Origin: Bacillus sp. ISL-41
Lineage (GTDB): Bacteria > Bacillota > Bacilli > Bacillales > Cytobacillaceae
Direction of reading: 5' to 3'
Assembly: GCF_018613235.1 (NCBI RefSeq)
Contig: NZ_JAGGQP010000008.1
Coordinates: 62,001 to 126,000, forward strand
DNA length: 64,000 bases
The notes under the pieces were generated by a model. It worked only from the letters and a program-made list of their open reading frames with translations. It searched no databases and had not been told where the DNA came from. A program made the translations under genes and the position numbers. Positions 46,968 to 62,809 of the stretch are shown here, one piece after another. Every line of letters begins with the position of its first letter. The first letter of the stretch is position 1.

Positions 46968-47232
46968 ACTGACCCCTCCCGAGTGCAGAATATAAATGTA
47001 AAAATGCTGCTCTATTTCTCTTTCCATCCTATATTCAACTTCCAAAAGTTTCAAGAAGCTATTTGAATAAATTCCATTTTTTTACTTAAATCAAGAATTG
47101 TCACAATTTGTCCACATAAATTTTCCCAACATAGCAACCGAAAACAAGCTCTATACCCGCATTTACAAGCATTTTAAACTTCAAGCCTACTATTTTCATT
47201 TATTTACCAGTCCGAGTCGTACAATTTACCCA

Positions 47233-55889: not shown

Positions 55890-56018
55890 TTACCAATGGC
55901 GAGTTATTTCAAGCAAAGTGTCAATCTCAATTGGGTTCAGTGTAAAACTCAGATCATTTTCAGCAATTTCCGTTGTCTCATTCAACAGCTCGTCAATATC
56001 CATGCTAATTGTTCCCAT
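55890..56018 (-). CDS. Small acidic protein, 42 aa
   Basis: Begins MGTISMDIDELLNETTEI, contains DLSFTLNPIEIDTLLEI and ends TRHW. Amphipathic, acidic, no signal peptide. AGGAGG six bases before the ATG and a terminator right after make it a real gene. Function and family unknown. Confidence 0.75.
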   Translation of the reverse strand: MGTISMDIDELLNETTEIAENDLSFTLNPIEIDTLLEITRHW

Positions 56019-56213
56019 ACCGAACCTCCTCATTTTATGCTGGACAGAACCTATGTCCGGCTTCGTGAAAATAGTTCGTTTATTATATGAGGGTTCTGGG
56101 GGTAATTTAACATCGAGAAAATTTTCCCAAGTTTTAAAATCTACAGTTTAGGCCAACTTGAAATCCTCTTTATAATTCACCATCTAAATACTTAAAGATA
56201 ATACGCCGAAAAA

Positions 56214-56242
56214 ACAAAAAAGGTCCAATTTAGGACCCTTTT
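56214..56242 (-). terminator. Terminator of RNPP cassette
   Basis: AAGGGTCC-TAAATT-GGACCTT stem followed by U6 on the minus strand, directly downstream of the pre-peptide gene. Confidence 0.87.
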
Positions 56243-56254
56243 TGTTTTTTTTAA

Positions 56255-56344
56255 TCAGATTGGAGGCAGGATTGGTGGCATACCAGCAACTAAAACTCCT
56301 AAAGCCATTGCACCAGTGAATAAAGCAAAAAACTTCTTTTTCAT
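56255..56344 (-). CDS. RNPP-type signalling pre-peptide, 29 aa
   Basis: Begins MKKKFFALFTGAMALGVL and ends GMPPILPPI: a typical Sec signal sequence (basic start, hydrophobic core) followed by a Pro-rich C-terminus of seven to nine residues. GGAGGA lies eight bases before the ATG, and its start is 17 bases after the stop of the regulator gene. Size, layout and position equal those of NprX, PapR and other RNPP peptides: secretion, trimming by extracellular proteases, re-import by an oligopeptide permease, binding to the TPR regulator. The mature form may be PPILPPI or MPPILPPI. Confidence 0.78.
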   Translation of the reverse strand: MKKKFFALFTGAMALGVLVAGMPPILPPI

Positions 56345-56360
56345 GTTTTCATTCCTCCAT

Positions 56361-57581
56361 TTAATTTATTTTTTGAATATATTTTACTGCTTGATCAAAC
56401 CTGCCTATCTGCTGATAGTGGTTTGATAGCATTTTGTAAAATCCAATTAATTCCTCACTTTTGCCATCACTTTCTTCCAAGTAAGGTATAACTTTAGCTT
56501 CTGTATAAGCAAGTGACTTCTCAGGCGATTCAAGATTCATTAGGTAATAGTTTGAAAGTATTCTATATTTACGACTTTCCAACTTCTTGGATAGTTCGTA
56601 AACCTCCTGAAAAGCTTCTCGAGCTTTGATTTCATTATTTAACTCTAAGTAAATCTCTCCGATAGAGTAAGTTGTTATCAGATAATGGGCATTATAGTTT
56701 GTTTGTAAGGATTTACTCTTCTCAAAGAAAAGAAGCGCGTCCTCGACATTGTCCAATTTCTTTTGTAAGTATCCCATATTATGATAAATCTCTGGCAAAA
56801 GTTTTGTTTCTTTCAATAACTCTGCATTCCTAATTAAATGTTTAAAACAATCTTGTGCTTCTTCATAAATTTTTGAGTGAGTATAGTTGATTCCGAGTAA
56901 CATCATTGCATGAAGTATTCGTTTAAAATTATGTTCTTCCATGAATTCCTGCAGAGCAAGCTTTCCGTAATAAATAGCATATCCAGGTTCTTCTAAGGTG
57001 GTCTTAGCGATTGCTCGGTGGTAAAACAACTCGCCACTAGCAATCTCTATTTTGGAATCCTTACCAATCGATCCCAATAAGTCATCTGCTTTTTTATATA
57101 TGCCTTTCTTTAATAACCATACAGCATAAAGATAGGAAAATAAAGCCAATTGAGGTTGGGAAAATATATTCTTCTGTTTATTTAAAAGGTCATATTGTTT
57201 TTGTGCGGCATTCAACATTTCTTTAAAAATCAGATACCTGTATTTCGCTAGTTCATATGTATGTAGATTATTGGAAAATGGAATTATCCCTTCAAACTCC
57301 TTTAATCTTTCCATCACATCATCGGCTTCATCGTTCAAAAAATAATCAATTTTTTCATTCAGCTCCGCCACTAGTTGTTTAATTTGATCCTCATTTTCTG
57401 TGATAGAAGCAAGATTGACGCCAAGCCTTTCAAGCAACAGGCCCATGGTTTCTTCATTGGCTTCCTTTGAATTGCTTTCGATCTTGCTTAAATGGGGAAC
57501 TGAACATATGCCATTTGCCAGTTCCTTCTGTGTTAGACCTTGCTGAACTCTATAAAATTTAATGAGTGGTCCAAACTGCAT
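56361..57581 (-). CDS. RNPP-family quorum-sensing regulator (NprR/PlcR-like)
   Basis: 406 aa: an N-terminal XRE helix-turn-helix (about 6-60, GLTQKELANGICSVPHLSKI) and about eight or nine TPR repeats to the C-terminus. NprR is about 420 aa, PlcR 285, AimR 386, so length points to the NprR branch. Peptide binding in the TPR groove should switch DNA binding. GGAAGGTGA upstream. It sits between the peptide gene and a secreted protease, its likely target. Confidence 0.9.
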   Translation of the reverse strand: MQFGPLIKFYRVQQGLTQKELANGICSVPHLSKIESNSKEANEETMGLLLERLGVNLASITENEDQIKQLVAELNEKIDYFLNDEADDVMERLKEFEGIIPFSNNLHTYELAKYRYLIFKEMLNAAQKQYDLLNKQKNIFSQPQLALFSYLYAVWLLKKGIYKKADDLLGSIGKDSKIEIASGELFYHRAIAKTTLEEPGYAIYYGKLALQEFMEEHNFKRILHAMMLLGINYTHSKIYEEAQDCFKHLIRNAELLKETKLLPEIYHNMGYLQKKLDNVEDALLFFEKSKSLQTNYNAHYLITTYSIGEIYLELNNEIKAREAFQEVYELSKKLESRKYRILSNYYLMNLESPEKSLAYTEAKVIPYLEESDGKSEELIGFYKMLSNHYQQIGRFDQAVKYIQKIN

Positions 57582-57667
57582 ACATTCACCTTCCGTTTTC
57601 TTTTAATCTACCATCTTTTTTAACTTTTTAAACAGTGCAAAAGTACTATTTTTTAAAAATTCTATAT

Positions 57668-57696
57668 TTTATAAATTGTTTCTTCATATAGTACAA
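57668..57696 (-). promoter_or_regulatory. Sigma-A promoter of the RNPP regulator
   Basis: TTGTAC-N17-TATAAA on the minus strand. A wide inverted repeat GTACTAT (57643-57649) / ATAGTAC (57688-57694) brackets it and may be a regulator site. Confidence 0.5.
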
Positions 57697-57710
57697 CAAA
57701 TAATAAAATA

Positions 57711-57741
57711 AAGCCACCCGGATCAATCAACCCGGATGGCT
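57711..57741 (-). terminator. Terminator of subtilisin gene
   Basis: A 10-bp stem AGCCATCCGG/CCGGGTGGCT (one wobble) and a U-rich tail on the minus strand. Confidence 0.87.
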
Positions 57742-57762
57742 GGCATGGATGTGAGTTTGCTA

Positions 57763-59043
57763 TTATCTTACGCGTGGGAAACCAAAACCTGATGCATAGT
57801 CATCGCCAGTAGCTGCTCCTGTTCCACCTTTGATGTCATATAGCTTCGCGCGTCTTTGGATTTCAGAGCGAAGCTGAGAGTTGCTCCAAGATTTATTCGC
57901 AGACCATAATTTAGCTGCAAGGCCAGAGATGTGTGGTGTAGCCATTGATGTACCGCTCATCGTAGCATAGTTTCCATCTACGGCTGTTGAATAAATTCCG
58001 CCGCCAGGTGCTGCTACTTCAACATCCTTTTCCTGGATATAGTAGTCGCCGTCCGTATATGGGTTACCACGAGAAGAAAAATCTGATACTTTATGGGTGC
58101 CATTTACGAAGGCATTATCCAGTGACGCTACCGCGATTGCATTTGTTAAAGCGCCTGGATATCCAATCGTGTTAGCACTTGGTCCACTGTTACCTGCTGC
58201 TGCAACAACTAATGCACCTCTGCTGTATGCATAGTCAACAGCACTTGCAATCATGGAATCCTTGCCGCTTGAACCTAATGACATCGAAATAACCACTCTG
58301 GTTCCTGTGCGAACACCTTCATCTGCAGCATGTCGGATTGCCCCTGCGATATCATCTGAATACCCTGAACCATTATCGCCTAACACCTTATAGCCCCAAA
58401 GTTCAGCTTCCGGCGCTACTCCATACACTCCTGCTCCATCGTATCCGCCATTCGCGACAGCTGTTCCGGCAACATGTGTGCCGTGGCCCTGACGGTCAGT
58501 ACATGATCCATTGACCATTGAAGAGTAGGATTGGGTGAAATCCTTACATTGTTCAACATTATCAGTCAGATCAATGTGATTGCGGTTAATCCCTGTGTCA
58601 AGGACGGCTACCTTGATCCCATTCCCGCCGCTTGTAGATTGGATATAGTTATCATTATAGATCGCTTGAATTCCCCAAGGAGTCTGGTCAGATGGATAAG
58701 ATGCCTGAGCAGTATAGTCACCCTTGCCTTTACCGTTTCCATTCCCTTCTACTCGGGCGTCGATTGTAAGAGTGTCCACCTGGGAAACTTCGATATTCTT
58801 ATTTTTTAACAAAGCCTGATATTGCTTGCTGTTTACTTCTGTAGTGAATCCTTGATTACCAAAGTCCCATCGCTTGCCATATTGTTCTTTCGCTTTTGCT
58901 TGTTCTGCACTCGGACCCTTAATTAAAACTCGATAAGTATCCTGGCTTTCTTGTACTCCCGCACCAAAAGCCCCTGTCGCAAACATCGAAATACCCATTG
59001 CTAAACTAAGTACTGCGGATCCGAATATTCTTTTCTTCTTCAT
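57763..59043 (-). CDS. Secreted subtilisin-like serine protease (S8)
   Basis: 426-aa pre-pro-protein: signal peptide to about residue 28, an I9-type inhibitor propeptide (about 36-95), a Gly/Lys-rich joint (residues 100-108, GNGNGKGKG) and a catalytic domain with D149 (AVLDTGI), H187 (GHGTHVAG), N285 (oxyanion, AAGNSG) and S366 (GTSMATPH). Cys166 and Cys181 may form a disulfide, rare in subtilisins. AGAGGAG upstream. Likely under control of the adjoining RNPP regulator. Confidence 0.95.
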   Translation of the reverse strand: MKKKRIFGSAVLSLAMGISMFATGAFGAGVQESQDTYRVLIKGPSAEQAKAKEQYGKRWDFGNQGFTTEVNSKQYQALLKNKNIEVSQVDTLTIDARVEGNGNGKGKGDYTAQASYPSDQTPWGIQAIYNDNYIQSTSGGNGIKVAVLDTGINRNHIDLTDNVEQCKDFTQSYSSMVNGSCTDRQGHGTHVAGTAVANGGYDGAGVYGVAPEAELWGYKVLGDNGSGYSDDIAGAIRHAADEGVRTGTRVVISMSLGSSGKDSMIASAVDYAYSRGALVVAAAGNSGPSANTIGYPGALTNAIAVASLDNAFVNGTHKVSDFSSRGNPYTDGDYYIQEKDVEVAAPGGGIYSTAVDGNYATMSGTSMATPHISGLAAKLWSANKSWSNSQLRSEIQRRAKLYDIKGGTGAATGDDYASGFGFPRVR

Positions 59044-59096: not shown

Positions 59097-59126
59097 AGTA
59101 TATTTTAAATTTTCAGCTAATATCAA
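59097..59126 (-). promoter_or_regulatory. Promoter of subtilisin gene
   Basis: TTGATA-N18-TATACT on the minus strand, about 55 bases before the start codon. Confidence 0.55.
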
Positions 59127-61783: not shown

Positions 61784-62809
61784 TTATTGTCTGGCTGCCG
61801 TCGTGATCGCTTCGATTGCCTCCTGGATTTGATCTTCATTTACATCGTAATGGGTTACAAACCTTACAAAAGTAGGCCCAAACGTACCGGCGATGACTCC
61901 TTCAGAGCGAAGCCTCTCTACAAATACATCGGAAGGGATGTTCAAGCCTGCTACATCTGCGACGACAATATTTGTTTCCGGCTGTCTGGCAAGTTTCATT
62001 CCAGGGATCGATTCGATTGCTTCTGCCAGTACCCTTGCATTCCATTGGTCTTCTCCAAGTCTATCTTTCATTTTAGTCAGGGCAATCAAACCAGGTGCAG
62101 CGATGACACCAGCCTGCCTCATACCGCCGCCAAGGCGCTTCCTCCATTTACGGGCTTTTGAGATGAATTCTCCATCACCAGCTATGATTGACCCAACCGG
62201 TGCTCCGAGTCCCTTTGAAAGACATATTTGAACTGTATCTGTATTTTTGGAGAATTCCTTCACACTCACACCTGCAGCCGCTGCGGCATTGAACAATCTG
62301 GCACCATCGAGATGAACAGGTACTTTATTGGCTTGGGCAATACTATAGATCGCTTTCATATTTTCAACCGGAATAACTGCTCCCCCTGCTCGGTTGTGCG
62401 TATTTTCCAAACAAATCAACCCTGTTTCTGGATAATGGATATCCTCAGTTCGGATTGAATTCAAAACATCCTGTGGATCCATGGCTCCCCTGTGCCCTTG
62501 AATGGTCCTGGTCTGGACTCCGGCAAGGGCAGCTACTGCACCAGATTCATAATAAAAAATATGTGATTCTTCTTCCAACAGCAATTCCTGTCCTGGTCGG
62601 CAATGCGTTAAAACAGCAATTTGATTTCCTTGTGTTCCGCTTGTGACAAACAAGGCCGCCTCCTTGCCAAGTATTTCAGCTGCCGTTTCTTCTAACTCCC
62701 TGACTGTTGGATCCTCTTTATAGACATCATCACCCACCTCTGCTGTGTACATTGCTTTGCGCATTTCTTCAGTAGGTTTTGTGACAGTATCGCTTCTTAA
62801 GTCAATCAT
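61784..62809 (-). CDS. Low-specificity L-threonine aldolase
   Basis: 341 aa, PLP enzyme of fold type I. PLP lysine K199 in LSKGLGAPVGS, D168 in HLDGAR, SGTQGNQ near residue 57. Cleaves threonine or allo-threonine to glycine and acetaldehyde. GAGGGGG before the ATG. Single gene. Confidence 0.95.
   Translation of the reverse strand: MIDLRSDTVTKPTEEMRKAMYTAEVGDDVYKEDPTVRELEETAAEILGKEAALFVTSGTQGNQIAVLTHCRPGQELLLEEESHIFYYESGAVAALAGVQTRTIQGHRGAMDPQDVLNSIRTEDIHYPETGLICLENTHNRAGGAVIPVENMKAIYSIAQANKVPVHLDGARLFNAAAAAGVSVKEFSKNTDTVQICLSKGLGAPVGSIIAGDGEFISKARKWRKRLGGGMRQAGVIAAPGLIALTKMKDRLGEDQWNARVLAEAIESIPGMKLARQPETNIVVADVAGLNIPSDVFVERLRSEGVIAGTFGPTFVRFVTHYDVNEDQIQEAIEAITTAARQ

Follow-up and report, generated by a model that had tools for sequence, protein, structure and literature searches.

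A conserved regulator–pheromone–subtilisin cassette in Mesobacillus-like bacteria: a candidate NprR-like quorum-sensing subfamily with its own peptide signal

Here, we describe a three-gene cassette of Bacillus sp. ISL-41 that, in our best reading of the sequences, represents an NprR-like quorum-sensing (QS) subfamily that uses a signal of its own and targets secreted subtilisins. The cassette lies in a 64,000-nucleotide (nt) stretch of contig NZ_JAGGQP010000008.1 (assembly GCF_018613235.1, forward-strand positions 62,001 to 126,000), hereafter the window, which we treat as Mesobacillus-like. The three genes form a genuine, conserved unit. We consider it quite probable that it is a peptide QS cassette of the RRNPP kind, whose regulator, built from a helix-turn-helix (HTH) domain and tetratricopeptide repeats (TPR), acts at a DNA box, TTTCCCAA, on the neighboring subtilisin gene. 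The elements that carry the argument are these, in window coordinates.

56255 to 56344, minus strand: pheromone precursor gene, 29 amino acids, MKKKFFALFTGAMALGVLVAGMPPILPPI, with a Sec-type leader (judged by eye) and C-terminal PPILPPI
56361 to 57581, minus strand: HTH-TPR regulator (receptor) gene, 406 amino acids
57763 to 59043, minus strand: secreted subtilisin gene of the sphericase/SubTY type, the proposed target, 426 amino acids
59147 to 59158, minus strand: box ATTTTTCCCAAT, the proposed operator in the subtilisin promoter, within which the 8-mer TTTCCCAA is conserved
59097 to 59126, minus strand: sigma-A-like subtilisin promoter, TTGATA-N18-TATACT, 20 nt downstream of the box
57155 to 57166, minus strand: box copy within the regulator gene, codons 140 to 142, TTT TCC CAA
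57712 to 57741, minus strand: terminator-like hairpin in the gap between subtilisin and regulator

An earlier note on this DNA had placed the three genes, and all are confirmed, on the minus strand. Its statement that the precursor starts 17 bases behind the regulator stop is right: 16 bases lie between that stop and the precursor ATG. The precursor gene possesses an AGGAGG-like site (5/6 match), and its product ends in GMPPILPPI. The subtilisin matches Peptidase_S8; in the Protein Data Bank it matches SubTY (5ffn, E 2.7e-144) and sphericase (1ea7). Given the terminator-like hairpin at 57712 to 57741, the protease gene is a neighboring unit of transcription and does not share an operon with the regulator.

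The pairing of regulator and precursor is conserved across 101 regulator loci that we collected (the window, L017, L039–L078, and L098–L156). A downstream open reading frame (ORF) with P[IVL]xPP near its C-terminus, forming the core x-P-I-x-P-P-x, is present at 99/101 loci; the two exceptions, L118 and L143, end at contig edges. By comparison, the core ORF was found at 0/21 other RNPP-type loci and in 16/5000 random windows. Homologs thus keep the small frame, the first of the points on which the earlier note had staked its proposal, which survives that check. At L149, one of the 99, leader and core are in different frames; at L076, the regulator frame is broken and the core lies behind the second piece. 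Seven loci were added later: the five at 37–44% identity have the core, and the two at 32% (L310, L311) lack it. Core positions 2, 5, and 6 are invariant by construction, P[IVL]xPP having been a requirement of the scan. Position 3 is I in 117/117 copies; the residues are mostly H, P, T, or D at position 1, L, Q, Y, or H at position 4, and V, L, I, or A at position 7. Outside the core, precursors vary freely: leaders and spacers differ, and 32 carry an extra terminal G. As the earlier note had recognized, the peptide does not resemble SKPDIVG; its core is xPIxPPx. A literature search for the cores HPIQPP, HPILPP, PPIQPP, HPIHPP, PIQPPV, and PILPPI found no paper, other variants not being covered.

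The size of the signal is suggested by one genus, labeled g20, whose receptors form a single clade (support 100/100). Its eight regulator-bearing genomes encode precursors with 2, 2, 3, 3, 3, 3, 5, and 5 heptapeptide copies, identical within a precursor and reading HPIHPPL, HPIYPPL, or TPIYPPL in different species. The spacers between repeats range from one to eight residues. That an exact heptapeptide is repeated with varying spacers points to seven residues as the peptide unit, which indirectly supports PPILPPI, one of the two mature peptides that the earlier note had predicted. Identical mature peptides in tandem, in up to six copies, are documented for RRNPPA propeptides, the NprR subfamily included (PMC9765709, section 7; PMC11343458, section 4); here, all eight regulator-bearing g20 genomes have two to five copies, and the core differs between species. 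Separately, in another family of the order, an ORF 3' of an RNPP-type regulator (L290, genome G118) contains five copies of EEHPKFN, a different candidate multi-copy pheromone.

The receptor side of the pair is recognizable from its fold. The regulator has an HTH_3 domain at residues 7–58 followed by TPR matches, and its structure model (mean predicted local distance difference test score 84.5) finds NprR and Rap as best structural matches. Identity to solved NprR chains is 21–24%, with TPR chains only compared; in the part of PMC10075063 drawn on here, the cluster rule for the NprR subfamily is a best hit of at least 30% identity over 80% of the reference. NprR residues R126, W167, H201, N306, and D309 contact the NprX peptide, according to the portion of PMC4970707 available. 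Their places are occupied in the window regulator by E121, Y162, T195, H299, and I302, and among 99 orthologs R, H, and N stand at the places of R126, H201, and N306 in 5, 6, and 16, respectively. NprR F225 is kept, as F219, in 98/99 orthologs. N268, which aligns to the anchoring-Asn place of RRNPP regulators, is present in 99/99; we take NprR N275 to be the peptide-anchoring Asn of the TPR groove.

Peptide and receptor also change together. We traced changes by Fitch reconstruction over the 194 branches of a 98-locus FastTree tree, for 320 receptor columns. Branches on which peptide position 1 changes coincide with those on which residue 339 does for 7 of its 8 changes, at p = 2.1e-7; position 4 coincides in this way with residue 194 (10/16, p = 6.2e-7) and position 7 with residue 157 (10/13, p = 5.2e-9), each the best of the 320 columns. 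The preferred pairings are Q4 with S194 (32/33), W4 with G194 (3/4), V7 with I157 (39/51), and D1 with Q339 (10/10, all in one clade). Runner-up columns include 162, 121, and 195, which align with the NprR contacts W167, R126, and H201; NprR R343 falls in an alignment gap near residue 339. We conclude that the heptapeptide and its receptor co-evolve, at receptor positions close to those that in NprR bind NprX. Fold, conserved pairing, and co-evolution together bear out the earlier identification of an RNPP-type regulator followed by a pheromone precursor. It is highly improbable that the small ORF encodes a micropeptide of some other role, located behind the regulator by chance: such a peptide would not account for the tandem identical heptapeptides in all eight g20 genomes, for the retention of the core in leader-free forms (below), or for variable core positions that co-evolve with TPR residues.

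The connection to the protease is provided by the box. The 8-mer TTTCCCAA precedes the subtilisin gene in 67/68 linked loci (68/101 loci have a subtilisin directly upstream of the regulator), in 52/68 as TTTTCCCAA; at the remaining locus, L017, the contig ends before the box place. Apart from that of the distant L058, every such box lies between −93 and −139. Subtilisins that are unlinked, located elsewhere or downstream, in regulator-bearing genomes carry the 7-mer form of the box in 8/9 promoters (7 genomes, 4 genera), and the ninth carries it inverted. In genomes that lack the regulator, where a subtilisin relative exists in just 4/28, 0/6 subtilisin promoters contain the 7-mer (4 genomes, 2 genera; Fisher p = 0.0014 for the contrast, the genomes not being independent). 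Where no subtilisin is directly upstream, the 7-mer occurs at most 300 nt before the regulator in 28/33 loci, inverted in two more, and is missing from three; where one is upstream, 4/68 of the shorter subtilisin–regulator gaps hold it. The promoter box tracks the presence of the regulator, not linkage, in support of the earlier proposal that the protease is the regulator's target. Among other RNPP loci, 5/21 have TTTCCCAA within 300 nt upstream, compared with 132/4200 random windows of these loci, an indication that the box goes with regulators of this type. Four of those five sit in the branch with a Priestia koreensis plasmid relative, which itself lacks the box.

Two further observations concern the box in distant relatives. 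L283 (genome G138), a 31% relative, has a box at −85, but its peptide ends differently, in VMLPPS; this would be consistent with the box predating the PIxPP signal. Upstream of the NprR-like regulators L295 and L297, a forward and an inverted box stand 52–53 nt apart, as if a tetramer bound both.

The box also bears on a different arrangement, in which peptide and regulator are a signaling pair, another regulator binds the box, and the protease mainly matures the precursor. Extracellular proteases generally carry out the maturation of RRNPPA propeptides (PMC11343458, section 4), and many precursors here have a spacer between leader and core that calls for a second protease. We nonetheless judge this arrangement decidedly unlikely, given that the box tracks the regulator rather than linkage and that the regulator gene itself carries a copy. 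Nor does the subtilisin look like an obligatory processor, since 23 of the 30 genomes searched (for 30 of the 33 loci without an upstream subtilisin) have no subtilisin relative at E 1e-60. At L053, the core directly follows an ALA motif (judged by eye), so signal peptidase alone could free it.

As for the sign of control, the location of the box upstream of the −35 element leads us to favor activation by the peptide-loaded regulator. The opposite sign, repression until the peptide releases the regulator, as in AimR or Rap, is conceivable and on balance unlikely, with odds that overlap those of our preferred reading. The peptides of AimR and Rap systems are usually inhibitors of their receptors (PMC11343458, section 4); here, the box precedes the −35 element by 20 nt, a location that resembles an activator site, and the closest fold is that of NprR, described in the part of PMC4970707 at hand as a peptide-dependent activator.

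The second box, inside the regulator gene, is strongly constrained at synonymous positions. Exact TTTTCCCAA, spelled by codons 140–142 (TTT TCC CAA), is found in 92/101 loci. The Ser codon of the box is TCC in 95/101 loci, and TCC makes up 18.7% of all 2385 Ser codons, those 95 included. Among 149 conserved degenerate columns in 99 loci, relative synonymous entropy is lowest at codons 142, 156, 141, 147, and 140. Neither g20 nor the genus of L057 retains the intragenic copy. Box copies inside the regulator gene and, where there is no upstream subtilisin, before it suggest that the regulator may control its own expression. An internal promoter at this site was considered and rejected: the TATAAT seen in genus g24 is not kept in Mesobacillus. 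L294 (genome G112), a distant RNPP regulator of 25% identity, likewise has TTTTCCCAA in the same part of its coding sequence.

Does the regulator reach beyond the cassette? The 12-mer AWTTTTCCCAAC occurs 287 times versus 165 for the control in 38 regulator-bearing genomes, and 133 versus 124 times in 29 genomes without the regulator (p = 0.0025); g20 shows 67 versus 19 (five genomes). A scan for S8 proteases preceded by the 12-mer (four genomes, 111/143 matches inspected) revealed a second subtilisin in the window's own genome and in G017 (in both, inverted at about 176 nt), three more S8 genes in G039, and one in G235. The own-genome paralog (L161, G000:C20:82692-83477) is 67% identical to the cassette protease, with the inverted box about 176 nt upstream. 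That genome possesses 14 S8 proteases; the 12-mer is absent from the promoters of the eight others inspected, and two of these have the 7-mer near the frame start (L001, inverted, −72; L007, −54). In addition, AATTTTCCCAAC lies at window positions 47119–47130, 172 nt before a gene for an FtsH-like membrane protease, and also in G017. A regulon of the window's own genome called from the box alone was rejected, its counts being in line with the control.

A number of results pull against the proposed circuit. On the operator side, the 8/9 promoters derive from 7 genomes in 4 genera and the 0/6 from 4 genomes in 2 genera; a box near the regulator is missing from L041, L057, and L150, the one at L190 is present in inverted form only, and some other regulator could be what binds the box. 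Nor can the protease be the sole target, as 23 of the 30 searched regulator-bearing genomes with no subtilisin directly upstream have no relative of it at E 1e-60. The cassette itself supplies about one 12-mer copy per genome, so a regulon beyond it has thin support outside g20, and the window's own genome has no box excess (21 versus 20 for the control; 4 versus 6 in a second count). On the receptor side, conservation in the clade fails at most of the NprR residues that contact NprX, and the co-evolution p-values ignore branch length. L058 pairs D1 with Y339 and, despite its PIxPP peptide, sits outside the receptor clade in the tree; L303 and L307, with L at position 7 and I157, break the position-7 trend. 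Finally, in tree-free pair counts, T194 falls outside the top five for position 4 at 60–97% identity, and L157 ranks third for position 7 at 75–97%.

The cassette also involves several minor features.

55890 to 56033, minus strand: conserved ORF of 47 amino acids ending IEIDTLLEITRHW, a possible second target
56122 to 56130, plus strand: inverted box copy upstream of the 47-amino-acid ORF, at −92 to −103
56222 to 56237: short terminator-like hairpin 3' of the precursor gene, assigned to the plus strand by the scan, with a T-run on the minus strand too, by reading
57634 to 57647, minus strand: near-palindrome AGTACTTTTGCACT upstream of the regulator, conserved in Mesobacillus

The 47-amino-acid ORF adjoins the cassette in several genera and had no match in a Pfam search. 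In each of the 20 Mesobacillus loci scored, the inverted 7-mer precedes it at −92 to −103; overall, 21/24 loci have it. The near-palindrome was rejected as an operator; it is distinct in Mesobacillus alone, with weak versions in a few nearby genera. A search of the window against Rfam returned no matches.

A regulator relative at E 1e-160 or better is present in 21/21 genomes of the genus, the window's own included and one with a broken frame. At E 1e-70, 98/193 genomes of the family have one each, in 13/25 genera, and in an even draw across the order, 21/397 genomes from 7/135 genera pass E 1e-50. Ten named records hold relatives at 77–93% identity: eight Mesobacillus or Bacillus, one Cytobacillus, and one Chryseobacterium. 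In the tree, 54 of the 55 included PIxPP receptors form one clade (support 100/99), and the Priestia koreensis relative is on a separate branch. Carriage of the clade by phages or plasmids was rejected. No regulator match was found in the phage collection, and 13 plasmid records match at 22–37% identity only; thus, the clade looks chromosomal.

Among known systems, NprR–NprX of the Bacillus cereus group is the nearest. There, in the parts of PMC5641580 and PMC4970707 used here, a proline-containing heptapeptide is the signal and an extracellular protease is controlled. Both systems combine an HTH and TPR fold with a precursor gene directly 3' of the regulator, and in the clade described here groove positions equivalent or adjacent to the NprX contacts co-vary with the peptide. 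The two differ in the signal (xPIxPPx here, SKPDIVG for NprX), in the replacement of R126, H201, N306, and D309 in most of our clade, and in the neighboring gene, a subtilisin (S8) rather than the metalloprotease NprA, presumably the neighbor of NprR. The cassette protease belongs with sphericase and SubTY, and control of it by a peptide system is our proposal. The clade may already be among the NprR subfamily, counted in 21 genera in the available part of PMC9765709, or among the 21 novel clusters that RRNPP_detector reports in the accessible text of PMC10075063. The portion of PMC12700828 available contains no mention of Mesobacillus.

The notion is that the 29-residue precursor would exit by the Sec route and be cleaved to approximately PPILPPI, a product consistent with the conserved core and the repeat unit. 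The peptide would re-enter via an oligopeptide permease and bind the TPR groove, its N-terminal residue near 339, its middle near 194 and 162, and its C-terminal residue near 157 and 121. The regulator would then act at TTTCCCAA upstream of the subtilisin promoter, as the co-occurrence of box and regulator suggests, and the output of secreted protease would track cell density. Through its own box copies, the regulator would also control itself.

How the signal is delivered has changed within the clade. The precursor has become multi-copy in one genus and leaderless in three lineages. Micro-ORFs that, by eye, lack a leader and keep the core are MEKRRASNPPIQPPV (L074), MNKTIQTAMVPIQPPI (L045, with sister L042), and MKKAPILPPVT (L057), at three separate places in the tree; the later examples L306 and L309 belong to the genus of L057. 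Leaderless communication peptides are known from RopB, as stated in the part of PMC10518010 available. The forms here resemble them as micro-ORFs without a signal sequence next to an RRNPP receptor; they differ in nesting within a clade whose leaders are otherwise of the Sec type and in keeping the same core. The window precursor, unlike leaderless communication peptides, has a leader, judged by eye. In the leaderless lineages concerned (genus g15, one Mesobacillus, and three g48 genomes), the peptide may act inside the producing cell. A peptide-induced tetramer could moreover bridge the intragenic operator to the promoter box. We tentatively speculate, regarding the whole as possible and rather unlikely, that one heptapeptide lock-and-key operates through secreted single-copy, secreted multi-copy, and leaderless delivery in a single receptor clade, that the leaderless peptide is a private intracellular cofactor, and that a tetramer bridges the operator in the receptor gene. 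If so, leaderless forms turn a population signal into a cell-autonomous switch.

Derived from sequence, the proposal offers a complete and testable QS circuit, comprising signal, receptor contacts, operator, and target, for many soil Bacillaceae. The approximately 100 natural receptor–peptide pairs, with three co-varying contact positions, represent a ready code for exploring how RRNPP specificity evolves. The leaderless and multi-copy derivatives, in turn, allow one to ask why the mode of precursor delivery changes within one orthologous system.

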